This document shows positions 35,394 through 48,947 of a DNA stretch of 64,000 bases, in pieces. A program made the translations under genes and the position numbers. The DNA lies in the NCBI GenBank assembly GCA_946411735.1, contig CAMKFB010000001.1:62001-126000 (forward strand). The letters are read 5' to 3'. This stretch comes from an uncultured Selenomonadales bacterium. Its GTDB lineage: Bacteria > Bacillota > Negativicutes > Selenomonadales > Selenomonadaceae. Position 1 is the first letter of the stretch; every line of letters begins with the position of its first letter. Under the pieces are notes generated by a model that had not been told where the DNA came from, ran no database searches, and worked only from the letters and a program-made list of their open reading frames with translations.

Positions 35394-35422
35394 TTGACTT
35401 GCCGCACGCATTTTTTTACAAT
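35394..35422 (+). promoter_or_regulatory. Promoter of the restriction-modification gene, probably leaderless
   Basis: TTGACT, 17-base spacer, TACAAT. The predicted first transcribed base falls on or next to the ATG at 35429, and no Shine-Dalgarno sequence is present. Confidence 0.7.
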
Positions 35423-35428
35423 ATTATT

Positions 35429-38179
35429 ATGAATAACATCAGAGATTTTATCGCTGCTTGGAGCGGGCGCGGCTCCGAAAAATCTCACGCGCAAGCCTTT
35501 TGGCTCGACCTTCTCGCCGCTCTCGGCGTCGACCGCCCCTCGAACTTCATTCAATTTGAGGTTCCTGTCGAGGTCGACGGGCATCCCTGTTCCATCGACG
35601 GCTTCATTCCCGCGACTAAAGTTCTCGTCGAGAATAAAAGCCGCGGCATTGATCTCGATAAGCCCGCTAAACAGTCCGACGGAAAATTGTTTACGCCCTT
35701 CGAGCAAGCCAAGCGTTATGCCGATGCGCTCCCTTATTCCCGTCGCCCGCGTTGGATCGTCGTTTGCAACTTCGACGAGTTTCGCATCTGCGATCTTGAT
35801 CGCCTGCCGACTCTCCTCGACGACGACCGCGCGCGTTTTCAGACCGTCAAGCTCGCGCATCTCGTGCCGCAATTCAAGCGCTTGAAATTTCTCGTCGACC
35901 CCAATGACGACGACATTGAGGAAGTCAAAATTTCCGCCGACGCCGCCGACATCATCAGCCGCATACGCGATTCCTTCGCTCGAAAGATGCTCCACCCGCG
36001 CCGCGTCAAGGATGATCCCGTCGATTTTTTGAGCGTCAAGCAGAAAAATATGCTCAATCGGTTTTGCGTCCGTCTCGTTTTCTGCCTTTACGCTCAAGAC
36101 GCCGCCGTTTTCGAGCCCGAGCAATTCTCCGCTTATCTCAAAAATTCTTTCGATCGGCGCGAGGCATTCTTCGATCTTTTTGACGTGCTCAACACTCCGC
36201 CCGACCGTCGCGATCCAAATCTCCGCACGGAACTAAAACAATTCCCCTATGTCAACGGCGGGCTCTTCGCCGGCGCCGCGCTTGAACTGCCGCCCTTCGA
36301 TGAGACCATCGCCGCCGGCATCACTCTCGAGAATTTCAATTGGTTCGCCATCAACCCCACCATCTTCGGCGCCATTTTCGAGTCAAACTTGACGGGCGAC
36401 AGACGCCGCGCCGGCGGCATGCATTACACTTCCCGCGCCAACATTCATAAGATCATCGACCCGTTGTTTCTCGACGACCTCCACGACGAGTTTGCCGCCA
36501 TCAAGCGCAAGCGAAAAAATAAGCGCCGCGATTTGGAGGCGCTTCAAACAAAAATTTCCGAGCTGACTTTTTTCGATCCCGCTTGCGGCTCAGGCAATTT
36601 CCTCACCGAGACTTTCATCAGCCTCCGTCAATTGGAAAATAAAATTCTCGACGCGCTCATTGACCTCGGCGCGCCCTGCACCGTCAAGGTTTCCATCGAC
36701 CGATTTTTCGGCGTCGAGATTAACGATTTTGCCGTCGCCATCGCTCAAACCGCGCTGCTGATTTCCGAGCACAAGATGCTCTACGATACCGACATCGGCA
36801 TTCGCGAGCGCGTTCAATACCTTCCTCTTAAGCACTCCGCGCGGATCGTTTGCGCCAACGCTCTTGCGCTCGATTGGAATGAAGTCGTGCCGGACGGCGT
36901 CGATTACATCATCGGCAATCCGCCCTTCGTCGGGCATCAGTGGCGCACCCCCGCCCAAGTCGCCGATATGGTTCACGCCTTCCGCGACCTCGATAAGCAC
37001 GGCAAGCTCGATTACGTTTGCGCTTGGTTCAACAAAGCCGCCGATTTTATGAGTAACAATTTGACGCGCGCCGCCTTCGTCGCCACCAACAGCATCTGTC
37101 AGGGCGAGAGCGTCGGCATTTTGTGGCGTCATCTTTTCGACAAGGGCGTTCACATCGATTTTGCGCACAGGACTTTTCGTTGGACGAGCGAATCGGAGAA
37201 TGTGGCGGCGGTGCATTGCGTGATCGTGGGCTTTAGCGTGGCGCCGAGCGATCGTCCGAGGATCATTTTCGACGGCGATCAAAAAATAGTTGCGACCAAC
37301 ATCAACGGTCGGCTGCTCGACGCGCCCAATGTTTTTATACAGAATCGCGGCAAGCCCCTGACGCCGAACTTGCCGATTATGACCAAGGGCAGTCAACCGA
37401 CGGACGGCGGGCATTTGCTTTTGACGCCCGAGGAGCGGGACGAATTGGTTAGACTGGAGCCGCGCGCGGAGAAATTCATTCGGCGGTATATCGGCGCGGA
37501 GGAGTTTATCAACGGCAAGGATCGATATTGCCTGTGGTTGGTGCACGCGACCGAGGACGATTTGAGGATGCCTTTGATCGCCGAGCGACTGATGTTGGTG
37601 GCGGCGGCGCGTCGTCGTAGCGCAACGAAATCGGTGCGGAAGCAGGCGGCGACGCCTCATCTTTTCACGCAAATTCGTCAGCCCGACACAGATTATCTGG
37701 TCGTCCCCGAGGTTACGTCGAGCCAGCGAAAATACATTCCGATCGGATTTTTGCCGTCGACGACGATCGTCAGCAACAAGATTTATGTCGTCGCCGAAGA
37801 TGATTTATATTTTTTCGGAGTGTTGACGTCGATCGTTCATATGGCGTGGATGAGAATCGTCTGCGGACGGTTGGGGAACGGTTACAGCTATTCGCCGTCA
37901 GTGTACAATAATTTTCCGTGGTGCGGGCGGTCGCCTGTGATCGAGCAAACGGCGCGCGCCATTCTCGACGCTCGGGCGCAATATCCTTCGTGGACTTTGG
38001 CGGCGCTCTACGACCAACAAAAAATGCCGCCCGAGCTCCGCGCGGCGCATGAGGCGAACGATGAGGCGGTGCTGGACGCCTACTGTTTCGCTCGGTCGAT
38101 GTCGGAGGCGGAGATCGTTTCGCGCCTGATGGAAATTTATCAGCGCTTGACAGCGGGCGCCCCGACTGATAAAATTTGA
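35429..38179 (+). CDS. MmeI-like single-chain type II restriction-modification protein
   Basis: 916 residues. It joins an N-terminal nuclease (a PD-(D/E)xK-like pattern: Asp in SIDGFIP, then ENK in VLVENKSRG), a helical spacer, and a gamma-class adenine methyltransferase core: motif I FFDPACGSGNFLTE and motif IV IIGNPPFVGH. A target-recognition region follows (about 640-880; IPIGFLPSTTIVSNKIYVV and NGYSYSPSVYNNFPW are typical of this family). Such enzymes methylate one strand of a short asymmetric site and cut at a fixed distance when unmethylated. The start MNNIRDFIAAWSGRGSEKSH fits family N-termini. No separate methyltransferase or specificity gene is present. Confidence 0.88.
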   Translation: MNNIRDFIAAWSGRGSEKSHAQAFWLDLLAALGVDRPSNFIQFEVPVEVDGHPCSIDGFIPATKVLVENKSRGIDLDKPAKQSDGKLFTPFEQAKRYADALPYSRRPRWIVVCNFDEFRICDLDRLPTLLDDDRARFQTVKLAHLVPQFKRLKFLVDPNDDDIEEVKISADAADIISRIRDSFARKMLHPRRVKDDPVDFLSVKQKNMLNRFCVRLVFCLYAQDAAVFEPEQFSAYLKNSFDRREAFFDLFDVLNTPPDRRDPNLRTELKQFPYVNGGLFAGAALELPPFDETIAAGITLENFNWFAINPTIFGAIFESNLTGDRRRAGGMHYTSRANIHKIIDPLFLDDLHDEFAAIKRKRKNKRRDLEALQTKISELTFFDPACGSGNFLTETFISLRQLENKILDALIDLGAPCTVKVSIDRFFGVEINDFAVAIAQTALLISEHKMLYDTDIGIRERVQYLPLKHSARIVCANALALDWNEVVPDGVDYIIGNPPFVGHQWRTPAQVADMVHAFRDLDKHGKLDYVCAWFNKAADFMSNNLTRAAFVATNSICQGESVGILWRHLFDKGVHIDFAHRTFRWTSESENVAAVHCVIVGFSVAPSDRPRIIFDGDQKIVATNINGRLLDAPNVFIQNRGKPLTPNLPIMTKGSQPTDGGHLLLTPEERDELVRLEPRAEKFIRRYIGAEEFINGKDRYCLWLVHATEDDLRMPLIAERLMLVAAARRRSATKSVRKQAATPHLFTQIRQPDTDYLVVPEVTSSQRKYIPIGFLPSTTIVSNKIYVVAEDDLYFFGVLTSIVHMAWMRIVCGRLGNGYSYSPSVYNNFPWCGRSPVIEQTARAILDARAQYPSWTLAALYDQQKMPPELRAAHEANDEAVLDAYCFARSMSEAEIVSRLMEIYQRLTAGAPTDKI

Positions 38180-38518: not shown

Positions 38519-39787
38519 TCAACCGCCGCTGACGCTTTCGATGTCGCAATCGACCGCGCAACGTTCCGCCCAATTCGTCAGCACACGCTCCTTCACCAAT
38601 TCGCCGTCCGTCGAGGTCGCCTCCATCAACAGCACGAAGAATTGATTGCGCCCATGTTGCGTGACGCAATCGCTCCGACGCAAGGCATGCGCCAACACCT
38701 CAAGAAACGCCTCCGACTCCGACTCGTTCTCGAGCGTGAAGCGCATGAATTGAATGCCCTTCTGATAGTTGTCGACCAGCCGCGCCGCCAACCGATAGAT
38801 CACTTTAAAGCGGTCGAAGTCGACCACATACGCCCCCGCCGACTTGTTGCGCTCGCCCAAAATCATCTGCATGCCCGACAGGCTCCGCGCGGAGTCGGGC
38901 TCGACGCGATCGTGCTCATGATAGAAGGCGCAACCATGCTTGCCGTTTTGCTTGACGGTGTAAAGCGCCTTATCCGCCTTGCGACCAAGCTGCTCAAAAT
39001 TATTGCCCTCGTCAGGAACAAAGATCGCGCCGATCGACACTCCCAACGGAATGTTCATGTCGGCACCCATCAGACGGCGCGCCTCCTCAAGCAACATTCG
39101 ATTGATCTGCTCGACTTTATGAGCGATCTCGTTCTCGTCGCGCAGCCCCGTGCAGAAGGCAATGAACTCGTCGCCGCCAACCCGCCCGACTACATCATTC
39201 GAGCGCAGCACGCGGCGGAGGATATCGGCGAAGGCAATCAAAATCTTATCGCCCATGTTGTGACCGTAGAGATCGTTGACCAGCTTGAAACTGTCGAGAT
39301 CGATCATCAACAGCGCGCCCGAAGCGGTCGAACACAATTTTGTGAGCTCACGTTGTGAGGCGGATTTGTTGAGCAGCCCCGTCATCGGATCGAGCGTCGC
39401 CGCTTGACGCAAGCCCGTTATCTTGTCGAGATTTTCAATGATGTTGTCGACCCGCCGTCGAAGGAGATCGGGCTTGAGCGGCTTGCGAATGTAATCCGCC
39501 GCGCCGATCTCGAAACCGCGGCTCTCGCTCTCATCAGACTCGTCGGCAGTCATGAACATTATCGGGACGGGCTCGTCGCTGAGCTCCTGCAGCCGTCGAT
39601 GCAGAGTGTAACCGTCCATCTCCGGCATCAGCAGATCGGACAAAACCATGTCGGGGCGCTCCGCGCGGAACAATTCGATCGCCTCCGCGCCCGAGGTCGC
39701 GCCGATGATCTCATACGTCTTTGAAAGGATGCGCGTCGCCATCTTGAGCATCATCTTTTCGTCGTCAACGATCAATATCTTTTTCAT
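38519..39787 (-). CDS. Response regulator with REC, GGDEF and a degenerate second GGDEF domain
   Basis: 422 residues from ATG at 39787 (GGAGGTG upstream). Receiver about 1-118 with phospho-acceptor in LSDLLMPEMDG; diguanylate cyclase domain about 135-295 with an exact GGDEF at about 204-208 and an inhibitory RxxD site (RSND) five residues before it, so it should make cyclic di-GMP with product inhibition. Residues about 315-415 look like a second GGDEF fold in which GGDEF became GRNQF while RRSD is kept at the same spacing, a candidate c-di-GMP-binding output domain. It is the last gene of the signalling operon; ATGA overlap with the kinase upstream. Confidence 0.88.
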   Translation of the reverse strand: MKKILIVDDEKMMLKMATRILSKTYEIIGATSGAEAIELFRAERPDMVLSDLLMPEMDGYTLHRRLQELSDEPVPIMFMTADESDESESRGFEIGAADYIRKPLKPDLLRRRVDNIIENLDKITGLRQAATLDPMTGLLNKSASQRELTKLCSTASGALLMIDLDSFKLVNDLYGHNMGDKILIAFADILRRVLRSNDVVGRVGGDEFIAFCTGLRDENEIAHKVEQINRMLLEEARRLMGADMNIPLGVSIGAIFVPDEGNNFEQLGRKADKALYTVKQNGKHGCAFYHEHDRVEPDSARSLSGMQMILGERNKSAGAYVVDFDRFKVIYRLAARLVDNYQKGIQFMRFTLENESESEAFLEVLAHALRRSDCVTQHGRNQFFVLLMEATSTDGELVKERVLTNWAERCAVDCDIESVSGG

Positions 39788-42700
39788 GATGTCACCTCCA
39801 ACCATTTTGCTATATCCGATCGAACCGCCGCGTAGTTCTCGAGCAGCGCGCCGTGATTGTTTTTGATCGTTTCGAGATCGCCGTCCTTGGCCGCCGCCTC
39901 CAGCGCCTTCGCCTTCTCACTCAGTTCGGTCGCCCCGACGATCAACGATGTCGACTTGAGCCCGTGCACCGATACTTTATAAGCGTTCACGTCGCCGTCC
40001 GACAAGAATTTCGTCAGCTCCTCCGACTTGTCATCGTCGATGAAATCATTCAACATCTCGATAAAAAATTCCTTGCTGTCCATGCAAGAGTTGAGCGCCA
40101 CCTCGAGATCGAGCCACGGACACAGCTCCGCCAATAAATTTTTCTCCGCCTCCGAAAAGCTGTCGTCATCAACCGTCGCCTCCGCCGGCGCTTCTTTATT
40201 TTCCATCGACGGTTCCTCCTTCGGCAAGTATTTTTCGAGAATCGCCTCAAGTTCGTCGGTGATAATCGGCTTTGATAGATAATCTGAAAACGATGCTTTC
40301 ATGTAATACTCTCGCGCGCCCGAGACCGCGTTCGCCGTCAGCGCGATTACCGTTGTCGACTCGTCGATCAAATGCTCCGCGCGGAGTGTTTTGAGCGTCT
40401 CGATCCCATCCGGCGCCGGCATCATGTGGTCGAGGAAGATTATATCATATTTTTTCTTCCGAACCAGCTTCAAACACTCGAGCCCGCTCTGCGCCAAATC
40501 CGGCACGATTTCATTCGCCTTCAACAGCCCGCGCATCACCTTCAAATTCATGCCGTTGTCGTCGACCACCATCACACGCGCGCGCGGCGCCTTGAGATAT
40601 TGCCGCGCCAAATTCATTTGCGCCCGCTCAAAATGATGTTCGCCGTAATTTCCGATCGGCATCTGATCGATGATGCGCTGATCGAGCGCGAATGAGAACG
40701 TCGAGCCCTCACCGTATACGCTCGAGACCTGCAGCTCCGAGCCCATCATCGTCAACAATCGCTGTACGATCGAGATGCCCAGCCCCGTGCCTTCGATGTT
40801 GCGATTTTTCTCCTCGTCGATGCGCTGAAAGGACTGAAACAGTTTGTCCATATCCTCCGGCTTGATGCCGATGCCCGTGTCGCGCACCGAGATTCGCAGC
40901 TTGATCGTGTCGGCGTCGTGCTTTTCGGTGTTGATCAGCAGCGCCACCGACCCTTCGCGCGTGTATTTGACGGCATTGGTGAGGATGTTCGTCACCACCT
41001 GCTTGATTCGAACGTCGTCGCCGAACAGACTTTTCGGCAGCGTCGGATCGATCTCCGTCTTGAATTCCAAGCCCTTCTTTCGAGCGCGCCCCGAAATCAT
41101 GTTGACAAGGTCGTCGATCATCATCGTGGTGTCGTAGCGCACCGGCACGATTTTCATTTTCCCTTCCTCGAGTTTCGAGAAGTCGAGGATGCTGTTTATG
41201 AGCGTCAGCAGCGTATGACCCGCGCTTTGAATGTTGAGCGCGTAATCCCTGATATCCCGATCGTCGCTCTCGCGCAAGATCATTTCGTTCATGCCGAGCA
41301 CGGCGTTGAGCGGCGTTCTGATCTCGTGAGACATTTGAGCGAAGAATTGAGACTTCGCTTGACCCGCCGCAACCGCCGTCGCCGCTGACTCGCGCAGTTG
41401 ATGATTGACGTCCTGCTGCCAACCGAGAAGCCGATTGATCAGAATGTTGACGATGAAAATGCCCACGAGCAGGAAAATCGAGAAGGCAATCCCGAGCGTA
41501 AAGATGTTGCCGTAGATGTTCCACCAATTGTTGGCGACGATGACGGTGAATTGCGAGGCGGCGTTCTTTTTGGCAAGGCAAGCGACGCGCGTGCCGGTGT
41601 AATCGGTGGTGCGGATGACCTCATCATCGGCGTAGGCGCGCTGATATTCGGTGCCGTTGACGTCGGTCATTCGCTCGACGGACATCTCGTAATCCTTGTT
41701 CGGATGGTTGATGATGATGCCGTTGCGGTCGACCAGGAAGGCGTAGCCGTTTCGACTGTAGCTTTCGCCGAGCACGGTGATGAGCCGATCGAGATAGAAA
41801 TCGATGCCGAAAATCCCGAGGAACTCGTCGTTGGGACCGTAGATGACCTGCGATATCGTCACGCAATAGACGCCGGTCTGGTCGTCGTAATACGGCGCCG
41901 ATACGCTGAAGCCGTGCTCGGAGCGCTCGGTTTCGATGTACCACGGGCGCTGCTCGACGCGCCAGCCCGGAGGACCCTCCCAACCGCTGTTCATAATTAG
42001 CGGATGTTCTTTATAAGGATTGGCCATGTAGCAGGCGGATATCTCGGGATAATTCTTCGCAAGGTCGTTGAGGAGCTTGACGGCGGATTCGTAATCGTCC
42101 ATGATCCGCGGGCGCTCGGCGATCAGGCTGGTGAACATGCTCAAGATGCTCCGCTGCTTTTCTATCCAATTCGACAGTTGATATTCGTAGGTGTCGACTT
42201 CGCGATTCATCTTCGTGTCGCCCCAATTGATGGTCGTGTTGATGCACAGCCACATGCTCACGACCATCGAAAAAGTCAGCACCAGGATGATGTAGGTGCG
42301 CGTCGAGCGGCTGATTTGAGAGACTTCGACGCCGCCGCTTTTTTGGTCGTCGCGCGCGGAGCTTTTATCGAAGGCGTTGATGCTCGACATCGAAAACAGA
42401 TTGTAGAGCATCTCGGAGAGTTTGCGGGCGGAGTCGTGGACTTGAGCGGCGTTCTCGATCGGATCGACATCATGAGAGAACACTTCGGCGTTCGACAGTT
42501 TCAAGATGCGATTGAGCGGATCGCGCAACTCCCTCGACATGTTGGAGAGGAAATTGTCTTTGACTTTAAGCGCCTCTTCGGCCTTGAGGCGGTTCTTGAC
42601 GCCGTTGAGATAAAAGCCGACGATGGTCACGAGCATCAACAGGCTGATGAAGGTCGTAATGAACAGATGAACGTAGCTGTCCTTATAAAGCGCGCGGTCG

Positions 42701-43536
42701 TCGACGCTGAGGATCATATACCAACCGTTCTCCGTCCGACTGCTGAAGATGGTGTGGTCGGCGCCGTCGATCTCGGCGACAAAGCTGTCGTGATTGGTTT
42801 TATTGAGGACGCGCTCGAGAATGGGCTCGTACTCGGGGAGCTTGCGCGAAACCTTTTCGCCGACCAGCGACATATCGGAGTAGCCGATGATCATGCCGTA
42901 TTTGTTGACGATTAGGGCGGTGCGATCGCTGTCGGAGTTCATTCGGAGGATCGACTCCTGCACGTCGGAGAAGTTGAAGTCGAGCCCGACGACGGTTCTG
43001 CGATCGGGCAAAACCATCGACATCGTAAAGCACATCTCGCCGGAGGCGGCATCAATATACGGCTCGGTGGTAAAAACTTCGTTGGGATTTTCGAGCGCGC
43101 CGCGGAACCAACTGCGCTCGGTGGCGTGATAGTCATCGGGCATGTTGAAATCGGGGATGATAGACCAATCGGGCGTGGCGCTGTAGACGTTGAAGCAGGT
43201 ACCGTTGGTGAGCAGCTTTTGATCGTGTTTGCGCTGATGGATGAACTCGACCAGCTGTTGATGCGGCGCGCCGGAGGTCAATATTTTTTGGACGTCCTCG
43301 GCGGTCTGCGTGGTGGCGTCCTCGGCTTTCGAAAGCACGTCTTGAAAATCCGCGCGGATCGATTCCAGTTGCATTCGACCGATCTCCTCGGTCTGATTGG
43401 AAGTCATTTGGAAGATTAATTTGACGTTGAGCCCGATGACGAGCAGAAACATGGCGGCGATAACGATGATGATGGTGAAGTCGTCGGATTTGCTGTTGCG
43501 GAGAATTTTCCATTCCGCCATAACTTTGTTTTGCAT
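39784..43536 (-). CDS. Giant hybrid histidine kinase: two dCache sensors, pseudo-HisKA, HisKA-HATPase-REC-HPt
   Basis: 1250 residues. TM1 about 20-42; first dCache about 48-295 with DYHATERSWFRGALENP and EPYIDAASGEM; TM2 about 300-323; a HisKA-like helix pair (about 325-390) reading NFLSNMSRELRDPLNRIL with Arg at about 335 where a kinase has His; TM3 about 425-447; second dCache about 450-690 with GPPGWRVEQRPWYIE; TM4; true HisKA with FFAQMSHEIRTPLNAVLG (His about 737); HATPase with DTGIGI and GTGLGISIV; receiver with the Asp in IIFLDHMMPAPDG (about 1037); HPt with VHGLKSTS (His about 1191). It could run a full phosphorelay by itself to the REC-GGDEF protein downstream. Its start overlaps the stop of the upstream paralogue by one base. 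Confidence 0.9.
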   Translation of the reverse strand: MQNKVMAEWKILRNSKSDDFTIIIVIAAMFLLVIGLNVKLIFQMTSNQTEEIGRMQLESIRADFQDVLSKAEDATTQTAEDVQKILTSGAPHQQLVEFIHQRKHDQKLLTNGTCFNVYSATPDWSIIPDFNMPDDYHATERSWFRGALENPNEVFTTEPYIDAASGEMCFTMSMVLPDRRTVVGLDFNFSDVQESILRMNSDSDRTALIVNKYGMIIGYSDMSLVGEKVSRKLPEYEPILERVLNKTNHDSFVAEIDGADHTIFSSRTENGWYMILSVDDRALYKDSYVHLFITTFISLLMLVTIVGFYLNGVKNRLKAEEALKVKDNFLSNMSRELRDPLNRILKLSNAEVFSHDVDPIENAAQVHDSARKLSEMLYNLFSMSSINAFDKSSARDDQKSGGVEVSQISRSTRTYIILVLTFSMVVSMWLCINTTINWGDTKMNREVDTYEYQLSNWIEKQRSILSMFTSLIAERPRIMDDYESAVKLLNDLAKNYPEISACYMANPYKEHPLIMNSGWEGPPGWRVEQRPWYIETERSEHGFSVSAPYYDDQTGVYCVTISQVIYGPNDEFLGIFGIDFYLDRLITVLGESYSRNGYAFLVDRNGIIINHPNKDYEMSVERMTDVNGTEYQRAYADDEVIRTTDYTGTRVACLAKKNAASQFTVIVANNWWNIYGNIFTLGIAFSIFLLVGIFIVNILINRLLGWQQDVNHQLRESAATAVAAGQAKSQFFAQMSHEIRTPLNAVLGMNEMILRESDDRDIRDYALNIQSAGHTLLTLINSILDFSKLEEGKMKIVPVRYDTTMMIDDLVNMISGRARKKGLEFKTEIDPTLPKSLFGDDVRIKQVVTNILTNAVKYTREGSVALLINTEKHDADTIKLRISVRDTGIGIKPEDMDKLFQSFQRIDEEKNRNIEGTGLGISIVQRLLTMMGSELQVSSVYGEGSTFSFALDQRIIDQMPIGNYGEHHFERAQMNLARQYLKAPRARVMVVDDNGMNLKVMRGLLKANEIVPDLAQSGLECLKLVRKKKYDIIFLDHMMPAPDGIETLKTLRAEHLIDESTTVIALTANAVSGAREYYMKASFSDYLSKPIITDELEAILEKYLPKEEPSMENKEAPAEATVDDDSFSEAEKNLLAELCPWLDLEVALNSCMDSKEFFIEMLNDFIDDDKSEELTKFLSDGDVNAYKVSVHGLKSTSLIVGATELSEKAKALEAAAKDGDLETIKNNHGALLENYAAVRSDIAKWLEVTS

Positions 43537-46500
43537 CAAACGCCCTCCTCCGAAATATTTTTTCTCCGTTTGTCCTTCAGTAAATATTTTTCGAGGATCG
43601 CCTCAAGCGCCGCGGTGATAATCGGCTTTGGCAAATAATCGGAAAATGATGCTGCCAAATATTGTTCGCGTGCGCCGCTGATTGCATTCGCCGTCAGTGC
43701 GATCACCGCCGTCGACTCGTCGATCAAATGCTCCGCGCGGAGGATTCTGAGCGTCTCGAGCCCGTCCGGCGCCGGCATCATGTGATCGAGGAAGATTATA
43801 TCATATTTTTTTTGTCGCACGAGTTCCAAACACTTCGCCCCGCTGTCGACCAAGTCCGGCACAATCTCATTGACCTTCAACAGCCCGCGCATCACCTTTA
43901 AATTCATTTCGTTGTCGTCGACCACCATCACGCGAGCATGCGGCGCCTTCAAATATTTTTGCTCCGCGTACATCTGCGACCGCTCGAAATGATTTTCGCC
44001 GTAATTTCCGATCGGCTCCCGATCAAGAACGTCCTGCTCGATCGAAAATGAGAACGTCGATCCTTCGCCGTATGTCGACGACACTTCCAACTCCGAGCCC
44101 ATCATCGCCAACAATTTTTGCACGATCGGAATCCCCAGCCCCGTCCCCTCGATCGAACGGTTACGTTGCTCGTCAAGTCGTTCGAACGCGCCCGACAGTC
44201 GCGGAATATCCTCCGCCTTGATCCCGATGCCCGTGTCGTGCACCTCGAACCGCAGACGGATTTTGTTCCCCGAAGTCTTGTTGAAAGTGACGGTGAGTTT
44301 GACGGCGCCGCGCTCTGTGTACTTGGCCGCGTTCGACAGCAGATTCGTCACGATCTGTTTGATGCGGACGTCGTCGCCGAACAGACTTTTCGGCAGCGTC
44401 GGATCGATCTCCGTTTGAAATTCCAAACCCTTCTTCCGCGCGCGCGCCGAGATCATATTTATCAGATCGTCGATCATCAGTATCGTGTCGTAGCGCACCG
44501 GCACGATCCTCATCTTGCCCTCTTCGATCTTGGAAAAATCGAGGATGCTGTTGATGAGCGTCAGCAGCGTGTGACCCGCGCTTTGAATGTTGAGCGCGTA
44601 GTCCCTGATGTCGAGCTCATCGCTCTCGCGCAAGATCATTTCGTTCATACCGAGCACGGCATTTAGCGGCGTTCTGATCTCGTGAGACATCTGCGCGAAG
44701 AATTGAGATTTCGCCTCCAATGCGGAGCTTGCCGCGTTCACCGCCTCCTGCAATTGGTGATTGACGTCCTGCTGCCACCTCAACAGCCGATTGATCAGCA
44801 TCCTGATGGCGATGATGCAGACGAGCAGAAGCAGTCCGAACATAGCGCCGAGCGAGATGATGCTGCCGTAGATGTTCCACCAATCGTTGGTGACCATAAC
44901 GGTGAATTGCGACACCTCATTCTTTTTGGCAAGGCAAGCAATCAGATTGCCGGTGTAATCGCGCGTGCTCACCACTTCCTTATCGCGGTACGCATTTTTG
45001 TATTCGGTGCTGAGAACATTCGTCGAGCGCTTGACGGTCAGCTCGTAATTTTTATTCGGATGATTGATGATGACGCCGTTGCGATCGACCAGGAAGGCGT
45101 AACCGTTCCGACTGTAGCTCTCGCCGAGCAAGGCGATGAGCCGATCGATGTAAAAGTCGATGCCGAAAATCCCGAGAAACTCGTTATTTCTGCCGTAGAC
45201 GACCTGCGACATCGTCACGCAATACAGCCCCGTCTGCGCGTCGTAATACGGCGCCGACACGTTGAACCCGTCGAGCGCCCGCGAAGTCTCCAGATACCAT
45301 TCGCGCTTCTCGACCCTCCAGCCCGGCGGTCCCTCCCAACCGTTGTTCATTATGACGGTGTGCTTTTTATAAGGATTCGCCATATAGCAGACGGATATCT
45401 CGGGGTAATTGGCGGCGATGTCGTCGAGAAATCTGACGGCGCTGTCGTAATCCGCCATTATCTCGGGGCGCTCGGCGATCAGATTCGCGAACATGCTCAA
45501 GATGCTCCGCTGCTTCGCGATCCAATACGACAGTTTCTGTTCGTACAGGTCGACCTCGCGGTGCATCTTCGTGTCGCCCCAACTGATGGTCGTGTTGATG
45601 CACAGCCCCATGCTCGCGGTCATTGTGACGATCAGCACCATGATGATCCCGACGCGCGTGAAGTGACTTGCTTTCGACAAGCCGACGCCGCGTTTTGCTT
45701 TCGCTGCTGTCGCGACCTGTTTATCGGCGGCAGTGATGGTCGAGAATGAAAACAGGTTGTCGAGCATATCCGAAAGGAGCAACGCCGACTCGCGTACTTG
45801 AGCGGCGACCTCTGCCGGATCGGCGTCCCGCTTGCTCGACTCGATGTGCGACAACTTCAGAATGCGATTGAGCGGCTCGCGCAATTCTCTCGACAGATTT
45901 GACAAGAATGTATCTTTGACGCGGAGCGCCTTTTCGGCTCGGAGACGATTTTTGACGCCGTTGAGATAAAAGCCGACGATGACCACGAGCATCAACAAAC
46001 TGATGAGCGTCGTCAAAAAAAGATGCGCGTAGCTGTCCTTATAAAGCGCGCGGTCGTCGACGCTGAGGATCATATACCAGCCGTTTTTTGTTCGACTGCT
46101 GAAGATCGTGTGGTCGGCGCCGTCGATCTCGGCGACGAAACTGTTTTTATCGTTTTGATTGATGACGCGCTCGAGAATCGGCTTGTACTCGGGGAGCTTG
46201 CCGGAAACTGTTTCGCCGACCAGCGACATATCGGAGTGACCGATGATCATGCCGAGCTTGTTGACGATTAGAGCGGTGTGATCGTTGTCGGCGCTCATTC
46301 GGAGGATTGAGGTCTGCACGTCGGCAAAATTAAAATCGAGTCCGACCACGGTCTCGCGATCGGGCAACGCCACCGACATACTGAAGCACATATTGCCGGA
46401 GGCGGCGTCGATATACGGCTCGGTGATGAAAACCTCGTCGGGGTTTTCGAGCGCGCCCTTATACCAATTGCGCTCGGGCGCGTGATAATCGTTGGGCATA

Positions 46501-46892
46501 TCGAAATCAGGGATGATGGTCCAGCGCTTGTCGGAGCCGTAGACGTTGATGCAGGTGCCGTTGGTCGACAGCTTTTGATCGTGTTTGCGCCGGTTGAAGA
46601 AGGCGACGAGCTCTTGTTGAGAAGCGCCGGAGCGGATCATTCGATTGACGTCGTCGGCGGTTTGAAGGGTCGTCTCTTCGGCTCTCGTGATGACATTTTG
46701 AAAATCCGCGCGGATCGATTCCAGTTGCATTCGACCGATCTCCTCGGTTCGAGCGGCAGTCATTTGAAAGATCAGCTCGACGTTGAGCCCGATGACGAAC
46801 AGAAACAGGATAGCGATGACGATGATGATGTTGAAGTCGCCGGCTCTGCCGCTTTTCAGTAATTGCCACTCCGCTGCAATTTTGCCACGCAT
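43536..46892 (-). CDS. Giant hybrid histidine kinase, paralogue without HPt
   Basis: 1118 residues from ATG at 46892 (AAGGTGGG 6 bases upstream; the ATG at 46898 is too close to it). Same order as the downstream gene: TM, dCache, TM, HisKA-like segment with FLSNLSRELREPLNRIL (Arg at about 334), TM, dCache, TM, HisKA (MSHEIRTPLNAVLG, His about 737), HATPase, receiver (IIFLDHMMPAPDG). The chain ends after the receiver, with a basic KDKRRKN tail and no HPt domain. It probably uses the HPt of its neighbour in trans. The two proteins align nearly without gaps, so this is a tandem duplication. Confidence 0.9.
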   Translation of the reverse strand: MRGKIAAEWQLLKSGRAGDFNIIIVIAILFLFVIGLNVELIFQMTAARTEEIGRMQLESIRADFQNVITRAEETTLQTADDVNRMIRSGASQQELVAFFNRRKHDQKLSTNGTCINVYGSDKRWTIIPDFDMPNDYHAPERNWYKGALENPDEVFITEPYIDAASGNMCFSMSVALPDRETVVGLDFNFADVQTSILRMSADNDHTALIVNKLGMIIGHSDMSLVGETVSGKLPEYKPILERVINQNDKNSFVAEIDGADHTIFSSRTKNGWYMILSVDDRALYKDSYAHLFLTTLISLLMLVVIVGFYLNGVKNRLRAEKALRVKDTFLSNLSRELREPLNRILKLSHIESSKRDADPAEVAAQVRESALLLSDMLDNLFSFSTITAADKQVATAAKAKRGVGLSKASHFTRVGIIMVLIVTMTASMGLCINTTISWGDTKMHREVDLYEQKLSYWIAKQRSILSMFANLIAERPEIMADYDSAVRFLDDIAANYPEISVCYMANPYKKHTVIMNNGWEGPPGWRVEKREWYLETSRALDGFNVSAPYYDAQTGLYCVTMSQVVYGRNNEFLGIFGIDFYIDRLIALLGESYSRNGYAFLVDRNGVIINHPNKNYELTVKRSTNVLSTEYKNAYRDKEVVSTRDYTGNLIACLAKKNEVSQFTVMVTNDWWNIYGSIISLGAMFGLLLLVCIIAIRMLINRLLRWQQDVNHQLQEAVNAASSALEAKSQFFAQMSHEIRTPLNAVLGMNEMILRESDELDIRDYALNIQSAGHTLLTLINSILDFSKIEEGKMRIVPVRYDTILMIDDLINMISARARKKGLEFQTEIDPTLPKSLFGDDVRIKQIVTNLLSNAAKYTERGAVKLTVTFNKTSGNKIRLRFEVHDTGIGIKAEDIPRLSGAFERLDEQRNRSIEGTGLGIPIVQKLLAMMGSELEVSSTYGEGSTFSFSIEQDVLDREPIGNYGENHFERSQMYAEQKYLKAPHARVMVVDDNEMNLKVMRGLLKVNEIVPDLVDSGAKCLELVRQKKYDIIFLDHMMPAPDGLETLRILRAEHLIDESTAVIALTANAISGAREQYLAASFSDYLPKPIITAALEAILEKYLLKDKRRKNISEEGV

Positions 46893-46912
46893 CAACATCC
46901 CACCTTGTGTGA

Positions 46913-48880
46913 TCAGATATTAAATTTCTCGGTTTCGTTCTGAAGGTTGGCGGCCACATCAGACAGCGCGCGAGAGCCCGCCGCAATCTCTTCCGTCGAC
47001 GACGACTGCTCCGCAATCAGCCCTTCGATCGCCTGCATCGTTTCCTTCGTTTCACGAGCGATCCTCTCGATCGTCTCGACCAATTTTACCATGTAGTTGG
47101 CGCCGATATAAACCTCTTGCATCGAAATATTTATGTCATTCATATCCGTTTTGTTGACGCGAACCATATCGATGATTTTCGTGAACTGATCGCCCACGCG
47201 GCGGATCGACTCCGCGCCCGCCTTGACTTCTTCGGAGCCGCCCTCGATCGCCTCGACCGCGCTTTGAGTGTCCTCGAGAATGTTTTTGATTCGCTCCTTG
47301 ATCCGATCGACCGCTTCTTGAGAGCTCGTCGCCAGCTTGCGAACTTCGCTTGCCACAACCGCAAAGCCTTTGCCGCTTTCGCCCGCGCGCTCCGCTTCGA
47401 TCGCCGCATTCAGCGCCAACAAATTCGTTTGATCGGCGATCGCGGCAATCGTCTCGACGATCTGATTGATCTGTTGAGAGTTATGCCCGAGCTTTTCGAC
47501 CACCGCTGCGGATTTCGTCACGCTCTTTTCGATATTGCTCATCATCTCGACCGCGCGGATCATCATCTCGGCGCCCTCTTGAGCGGCGGCGGCGGTGTCG
47601 AGAGTATTTTCGGCGACCCTCTGAGATTTTTCAAGGATCATCGTCACATCTGAGTGCACGGCGTTGACATCGCGCTTTGCCTCCCCGATTTCGGTACACT
47701 GATTTTCCATGTCGCCGGTCACCTTGACGGCGTTGTCGGCGATATTGTTGGCGGCCTCGGCGGATTGTTGAGCGGCGGCGGTCAGCTCTTCGCTCGAGGC
47801 GGCAACCTGCTCGGCGTTGGACGAAACTTTTTGGACGAGAATTTTAATGTCGTGCATCATCTTATTGAACGCTTGAGCCAGCTCGCCGAACTCGTCGGCG
47901 CCGTCGACGGGCAAATCGGCGACGCGGAAGTTACCGCGTGCCAGCTCATTCGCGTGTTTCTTAATGTCGTTGATATTGCGGACGATCCGATTCGCAAAGA
48001 CCAGGCTGAAGGCGACCATCAAAAAGATGCCGACGATCATCACGGCGGTCAAGGCGGTGTAAACGACGCGAAGGTGATCGAGCGACGCGAAGACGATCTC
48101 ATTCGGAACGAGGATGCCGACAATCCAGCCGGTGCTCTCGACGGTGGTATAGGCGAAAATATCTTGGTCGATCGAAAAAAATCCTTCGGGGCTCTCGACA
48201 ATCGCCTGAAAGTGATCGCGGAGCACGGGATTTTGAGCGACGGGCTGAAGATTCTCGGCGGGATTGGCGGAGGCGATGATCGTGCCGCTCGAGTCGATGA
48301 TCATGCCCTTGCCCGCGCCGCGATAGTTGATCGTCGAGGCGACGCGATCAAGCGTTTCGATGTCGATGTCGCTGCAGACGGCGCCGCGGAATTTGCCGTC
48401 GACGTAATAAGGCGCGGCGGCGCTGACGACGAGCTTGCCGTTGGTGGCATCTTTATAAACTTCGGTGAAAATCAATTTGCCCTCGGCTTTGACGCGTTTG
48501 TACCAATCGCGCGTCCTGATCTCGAGCTTGCCGGAGTGGTCGGCGGTGTTTGAAACGACGGCGCCGTCCTCGTCGCAATTAGTGAGCGCCATGATATCCC
48601 GGTCGTCGTCGGTGAGCTGCATCATCGACTGCATTGTACGATGATCGAGCGCGCCGGTGTTGAAGCGCGCCATGAGGTTGGCGGCGGCGACGGCGTTGAC
48701 GGCTTTCGCTTGCATCCAACCGTCGATGGATTGTCTTTGAGCTTCGACGGTGGAGAGGATTTCGTTTTTGATGCTGTCGTCGAGATTGGAGTGCGCGGTG
48801 GTATAGCCGACGAGCGAAACGCCGGCAAGGATGACGCTCACAACTGCGGCGAGCAAAAGAAATTTTACTTTGATACTCAT
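46913..48880 (-). CDS. Methyl-accepting chemotaxis protein with dCache sensor
   Basis: 655 residues from ATG at 48880 (GAGGACG upstream). TM1 about 6-28, a double-Cache ligand domain about 30-270 ([20 protein letters not shown] and [20 protein letters not shown] are typical), TM2 about 273-297, HAMP 298-350, then the signalling coiled coil with the tip [20 protein letters not shown]. First gene of a four-gene minus-strand operon with the two hybrid kinases and the REC-GGDEF protein, so ligand sensing here may feed both chemotaxis and c-di-GMP output. Confidence 0.93.
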
Positions 48881-48947
48881 GACAATCGTCCTCGAAAAAA
48901 ATTTTTTGCTGATCATAGAATTATAAATCTATCGGGCGCGCCGATAT

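Follow-up and report, generated by a model that had tools for sequence, protein, structure and literature searches.

Some plant ethylene receptors (subfamily 2, ERS1) carry a degenerate HisKA phospho-site and keep the dimer helices. These receptors have a single transmembrane sensor, and their HisKA-like part is found at the output end of the chain. TodS-type double kinases are soluble and contain two HisKA units per chain, each accompanied by a HATPase. Hybrid kinases with a dCache sensor are known from rumen bacteria, where, according to the main text of PMC9540692, the residue set R126/W128/Y144/D146/D173 defines the CahR AI-2 type of sensor. Both PMC10104139 and PMC11245519 discuss an amino-acid motif with which this five-residue set overlaps. 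The main text of PMC9540692 counts 638 such domains in 589 proteins, which means that some of the proteins have two, and does not describe the order reported here, in which a HisKA-like segment lies between two complete dCache sensors of one chain.

Two hybrid kinases with this order are encoded in tandem in the window, the whole 64,000-nucleotide stretch of DNA analyzed from an uncultured Selenomonadales bacterium; window coordinates below refer to the minus strand except where noted. Hybrid kinase 1 (P0002, 1120 aa, 43536..46898) reads TM-dCache-TM, pseudo-HisKA, TM-dCache-TM and HisKA-HATPase-REC and is without an HPt domain. Hybrid kinase 2 (P0001, 1251 aa from TTG, 39784..43539) has the P0002 architecture with an HPt added, and its real start is likely the ATG at 43536, one codon inside the listed ORF, which overlaps the P0002 stop as TGATG. 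The two proteins align without gaps over 1109 residues at 72% identity. For each kinase, Pfam returned two dCache_1, two HisKA, one HATPase_c, and one REC (Response_reg) domain, with a weak Hpt in addition for P0001, and hydropathy placed exactly four TM segments at matching positions (residues 24-42, 293-311, 416-434, and 680-698 of P0002 and the equivalent residues of P0001). The original prediction that both proteins set a TM-dCache-TM unit and a HisKA-like helix pair ahead of a second TM-dCache-TM unit and the true kinase core was borne out by both methods.

The outer core has the parts of a hybrid kinase: a HisKA with a phospho-His, a HATPase with N and G boxes, and a REC domain with the DD/D/T/K residues. 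By Pfam, this catalytic part spans 43593..44714 in P0002 (HisKA 729-794 with His739, HATPase 841-954, REC 990-1102) and 40237..41358 in P0001 (HisKA 728-793 with His738, HATPase 840-954, REC 989-1101). Across 45 aligned homologues, H739, N852, N856, D888, G890, G892, G918-G922, D994, D995, D1038, T1069, and K1091 (P0002 numbering) are invariant. The HPt domain of P0001 (residues 1172-1240, 39820..40026, with His1192 in HGLKSTS) was matched by Pfam Hpt with an E of 6.7e-5, slightly below the curated cut-off. An HPt is carried by 56 of 59 tabulated homologues; Pfam found none in P0002, which stops after its REC domain.

The inner segment of P0002 (residues 314-391, 45726..45959) matches HisKA with an E of 3.1e-7, and its counterpart in P0001 (residues 313-390, 42370..42603) aligns to it without gaps. 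Compared with Pfam HisKA as an isolated segment, P0002 passes the curated cut-off (E 3e-7) and P0001 falls marginally below it (E 7e-5). The match goes beyond chance, since HisKA is also hit by 50 of the 59 homologous inner segments when each is taken alone. A profile of the inner segment matched solved DHp domains across both helices with E values of 8e-8 to 1e-3, namely 7z8n, ERS1 (4mt8), CpxA, the pseudokinase DivL, HK853, RetS, and EnvZ. In the AlphaFold models, which are of monomers, TM2 continues into helix 1 (287-350), which is followed by a turn and by helix 2 (from 361) that continues to TM3. The leading structural matches are DHp hairpins, HK853 and DivL, at about 2 A across 70-77 residues; such matches carry little weight for a hairpin of two helices (the Foldseek E was never below 0.3, and for helical bundles a Z of about 9 does not settle the matter), and the Foldseek/VIA matches were used as support only. 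Pfam, the profile matches, and the predicted helical hairpin thus agree with the earlier claim that this segment is HisKA-like.

The position of the H-box phospho-His is occupied by Arg337 in P0002 (codon 45888-45890) and Arg336 in P0001 (codon 42532-42534), as opposed to the true His739/738 of the outer core. The surrounding motif reads LSRELREPLNRILKL in P0002; in P0001 it is MSRELRDPLNRILKL, with Met in the first position in place of the Leu originally given for both proteins. Only about 101 residues separate TM2 from TM3 in both kinases, which leaves no room for an ATPase domain, and Pfam detected no HATPase there in either protein, so the predicted Arg substitution and missing ATPase were both recovered. 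These results support the assignment of the inner segment as a HisKA/DHp descendant that sits between two sensors without a phospho-acceptor or an ATPase.

What this segment has kept and what it has lost can be read from its homologues. The inner His column holds 12 residue types in 83 sequences (H16 R13 K13 A12 G6 S5 L5 D4 N3 V3 T2 I1), and the true His is invariant in 77 of 77 homologues. When the tree is built with the inner segment left out, the inner column requires at least nine His/non-His switches and 39 residue changes. Among the 48 Quinella-type sequences, it is the second most variable of 23 helix 1 positions, and F331, S336, L339, P342, I346, A372, L375, L382, and S386 are fixed in all 48. 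Helix 2 of the hairpin is nearly unchanged in this clade (VRESALxLSDMLDNLFSFS), and conservation along inner helix 1 is periodic at 3.4-3.7 residues (p 0.0005), as in a packed helix. The dN/dS of the inner segment is about 0.14, similar to the sensors, and that of the true HisKA is lower at 0.05, values that can only be compared with each other because synonymous sites are near saturation. Together, these patterns support purifying selection on the packing residues of the inner segment. Because the His column drifts while Pro342 and the packing residues stay fixed, the Arg itself does not appear special and the hairpin is what is kept. The emphasis that had been placed on Arg as a specific functional replacement is rejected: family members show no constraint at this position, and 16 of 83 sequences still have His. 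As judged from the alignments, the catalytic chemistry has been dropped and the hairpin shape retained across the family. In Clostridial relatives, the inner sequence has decayed further, with the helix pair, the spacing, and Pro342 (29/35) kept. The hairpin is barely recognizable as HisKA in several of them, where its role may be no more than that of a spacer.

How the inner unit arose can be addressed in part. Its profile gives 42 bits for other HisKA domains encoded in the same genome (L003, L004) and a lower 32-38 bits for the true HisKA of the family, so a recent duplication of the protein's own HisKA is unsupported. Deletion of a core between two fused kinases is a plausible route. Among all homologues, none was an intermediate that still has an ATPase in its inner unit, and the nearest candidate for an ancestral unit is L141, a truncated single-sensor kinase with a dCache that resembles the first sensor at about 30% identity.

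Both sensors of P0002 are Pfam dCache_1 domains. The first (residues 44-290, 46029..46769) was aligned by phmmer to the amino-acid receptors PctA/PctC, and its pocket residues R143, W145, Y162, D164, and D188 correspond to R126, W128, Y144, D146, and D173 of PctA. The pocket of the second (residues 438-678, 44865..45587) consists of R532, W534, Y551, D553, and D581. All five PctA-equivalent residues are thus present in both sensors, and they are near-invariant in 83 homologues. These pocket residues suggest that both sensors bind ligands of the amino-acid/AI-2 class. The two probably differ in specificity, since the position of PctA Y121 is Tyr or Phe in the first sensor and mostly Trp in the second. 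In two Quinella-type genomes (L029:3082-3084 of G005, and likewise L028 of G014), the second dCache has one in-frame TAG in place of the pocket Trp that is otherwise near-invariant.

Directly after P0001 lies a REC-GGDEF protein with a degenerate second, C-terminal GGDEF (38519..39787, Pfam), which overlaps P0001 as ATGA. This junction and the TGATG between P0002 and P0001 each lie 3' of a Shine-Dalgarno-like GGAGG, and the overlaps show translational coupling of P0002, P0001, and the REC-GGDEF gene. Five residues ahead of the GGDEF is an RSND, the c-di-GMP inhibitory I-site pattern. The second GGDEF domain reads RNQFF in place of GGDEF (38519-38929), so each of the two partners, kinase and REC-GGDEF protein, has a dead second version of its catalytic fold. 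Of 26 related Selenomonadaceae loci that extend far enough downstream, 21 have a REC-GGDEF protein, 49-77% identical, directly after the kinase; among Clostridial loci, it is complete in two and begins in a third (L092), where the contig end cuts it. Upstream, 14 nt before P0002, is a chemoreceptor (MCP, 46913..48916) whose dCache has the same motif as the kinase sensors. P0001 and P0002 look like a tandem duplication because the closest relative, L049, has a single kinase between the MCP and the REC-GGDEF gene, in that order, and the upstream copy P0002 looks to have lost its HPt. Farther away, on the plus strand at 35399-38179, a 926 aa ORF resembles by eye a stand-alone DNA methyltransferase/type II restriction-modification protein.

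The architecture is shared by at least 60 full-length homologues, and homologous loci come from Quinella, Selenomonadaceae, Ruminococcus albus, Lachnospiraceae, and Saccharofermentans, mostly from ruminant sources. Matches were counted as full length when they covered the N-terminal half with both sensors and the hairpin. Within the same rumen Selenomonadaceae (Quinella-like) genus, 55 genomes including the window's own have matches, mostly full length, and 11 are listed without one; one further genus of the family has full-length N-terminal halves as well. Full-length matches were obtained in 10 of 198 genomes sampled from the Ruminococcus albus 8 family and, for a Lachnospiraceae family, in about 17 of 348, so that the architecture is present in about 5% of genomes in these two sampled Clostridia families. 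It is nearly absent from an even sample of the phylum. Several relatives elaborate on the scheme. One of 1639 aa (L144:3859-8775, G003:C27) has four tandem HPt domains after its REC (four Pfam stretches), and directly after it comes a second family kinase with one HPt. A Clostridial subclade (L082:6326-11053, L084, L085, L109, L112) carries about 300 additional residues ahead of the first sensor and is preceded by a further HisKA/REC protein of 686 aa and, where the locus is long enough, by a REC-GGDEF homologue (802 aa) that contains two REC stretches. A kinase homologue in a GC-rich rumen Clostridiales genome (L100:5959-9267) has two in-frame TAG codons at otherwise intact sites, one of which is Gln in the sibling L115. 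The tRNAs scanned in the L100 genome included none with a CUA anticodon, so stop-codon reassignment is unsupported there and decay or an assembly consensus is likelier than recoding.

The explanation that we favor, and hold to be reasonably probable, is that of a dual-input hybrid kinase in which a dimerizing hairpin derived from a DHp domain couples sensor 1 to sensor 2 and the output is c-di-GMP. Two extracytoplasmic dCache sensors would be joined by a cytoplasmic HisKA-derived hairpin that, having neither phospho-acceptor nor ATPase partner, would now serve a structural role in dimerization. It would also redirect the chain to the membrane, which allows sensor 2 to be threaded to the outside. 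The DHp hairpin is suited to this exit and re-entry because its helices begin and end on the membrane side. The ligand state of sensor 1 would pass through TM2 to the hairpin bundle and from there to the TM3/TM4 bundle of sensor 2, and the single core (His739/738, HATPase, and REC) would read the combined signal. Phosphate would then move from REC to the HPt of P0001 and on to the REC of the coupled REC-GGDEF protein, setting c-di-GMP; P0002 would need to borrow an HPt. We infer from this arrangement that one kinase probably weighs two signals before the c-di-GMP level is set.

A stronger form of this proposal makes the dead hairpin a membrane-to-membrane relay, in which sensor 1 would drive helix 1 down and helix 2 would return the change to TM3 and sensor 2. 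We regard such active transmission as less likely than not. If it is true, these proteins would be serial two-sensor receptors, suited to coincidence detection or gain control and recurrent in rumen and gut Firmicutes, and an example of a kinase dimer domain turned into a pure signal transmitter. The linker between helix 2 and TM3 (P0002 residues 392-414, 45657..45725) bears on this point, with 35% identity between P0001 and P0002, the highest entropy of all regions, and a pLDDT among the lowest in the model. These features make rigid helix-to-helix transmission into TM3 doubtful and keep alive a passive spacer or anchor, in which the hairpin would only return the chain to the membrane and hold sensor 1 near the dimer; any coupling between the sensors would come from TM helices or periplasmic domains that pack side by side. 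The retention of the architecture in Clostridial relatives with strongly decayed hairpins also fits. However, the nine fixed core positions and almost constant helix 2 of the Quinella-type clade exceed what a spacer needs, and the TM2-TM3 spacing is tightly held (88-107 residues, one sequence excepted), so we judge a purely passive role to be rather unlikely.

The inner pseudo-DHp could bind a receiver, an HPt, or its own HATPase and regulate the kinase while unphosphorylated, much as DivL reads DivK~P, and the presence of DivL among the profile and fold neighbors and of REC proteins in the same operon at many loci would agree with such docking. Yet residues 351-364 (the membrane-distal part, the loop, and the start of helix 2), the receiver-docking region of a DHp, are hypervariable even between P0001 and P0002, and the conserved part of the inner segment is the packing core, which makes docking improbable. 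It is more improbable still that the inner HisKA remains a phospho-acceptor for the downstream HATPase in the relatives that keep His, with the Arg forms as recent losses. The retained SHELRDPL of those 16 sequences and the repeated state changes on the tree speak for this possibility; against it, close relatives switch among H, R, K, and G (L104 H, L033 K, L067 G), the Thr/Asn of the H+4 position is mostly Asp/Glu, no ATPase is attached, and His is absent from all deep clades. An artefact, considered because the unit repeats and two genes might have been joined by an assembly or frame error, has next to no probability. Both it and chance are ruled out by the recurrence of the order, which the two tandem genes share with at least 60 further loci of several families and which lies in an open frame in nearly all of them.

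Every domain in these proteins is known. Their order is a conserved variant, and other genomes have it too. The original prediction recognized no standard family with this order and took many annotated proteins sharing it as a count against that view. Many proteins do share it, the architecture being common in rumen and gut Firmicutes; in the literature searched, which included PMC9540692 in its main text, no description of the order dCache-pseudoHisKA-dCache-HisKA-HATPase-REC-HPt was found. Serial dual-sensor kinases offer a natural test of signal summation before one catalytic core, here in an architecture that is common among rumen bacteria and encoded immediately before a c-di-GMP enzyme. 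With dozens of homologues in which the phospho-site drifts and the packing is kept, they also provide a clean split between the structural and catalytic roles of a DHp.

Each of the known systems shares part of this design. Like the CahR-type kinases in the main text of PMC9540692, P0001 and P0002 have the equivalents of the dCache_1 pocket residues and a HisKA-HATPase-REC-HPt type of core; unlike them, they contain a dead HisKA hairpin that separates two serially arranged dCaches. Caulobacter DivL (PMC4211667) likewise has a HisKA fold that lost its phospho-His (Tyr in DivL) and was kept for a noncatalytic task. DivL, however, is a separate regulator that keeps its CA domain, whereas here the DHp hairpin stands alone within an otherwise active kinase: the stand-alone arrangement of a degenerate DHp followed by a CA domain is absent, with no HATPase between TM2 and TM3 and an active core of the protein's own. 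In contrast to the ethylene receptors, P0001 and P0002 carry their HisKA-like part between two sensors, and in contrast to TodS, their first HisKA unit has neither His nor HATPase and is set between TM segments.
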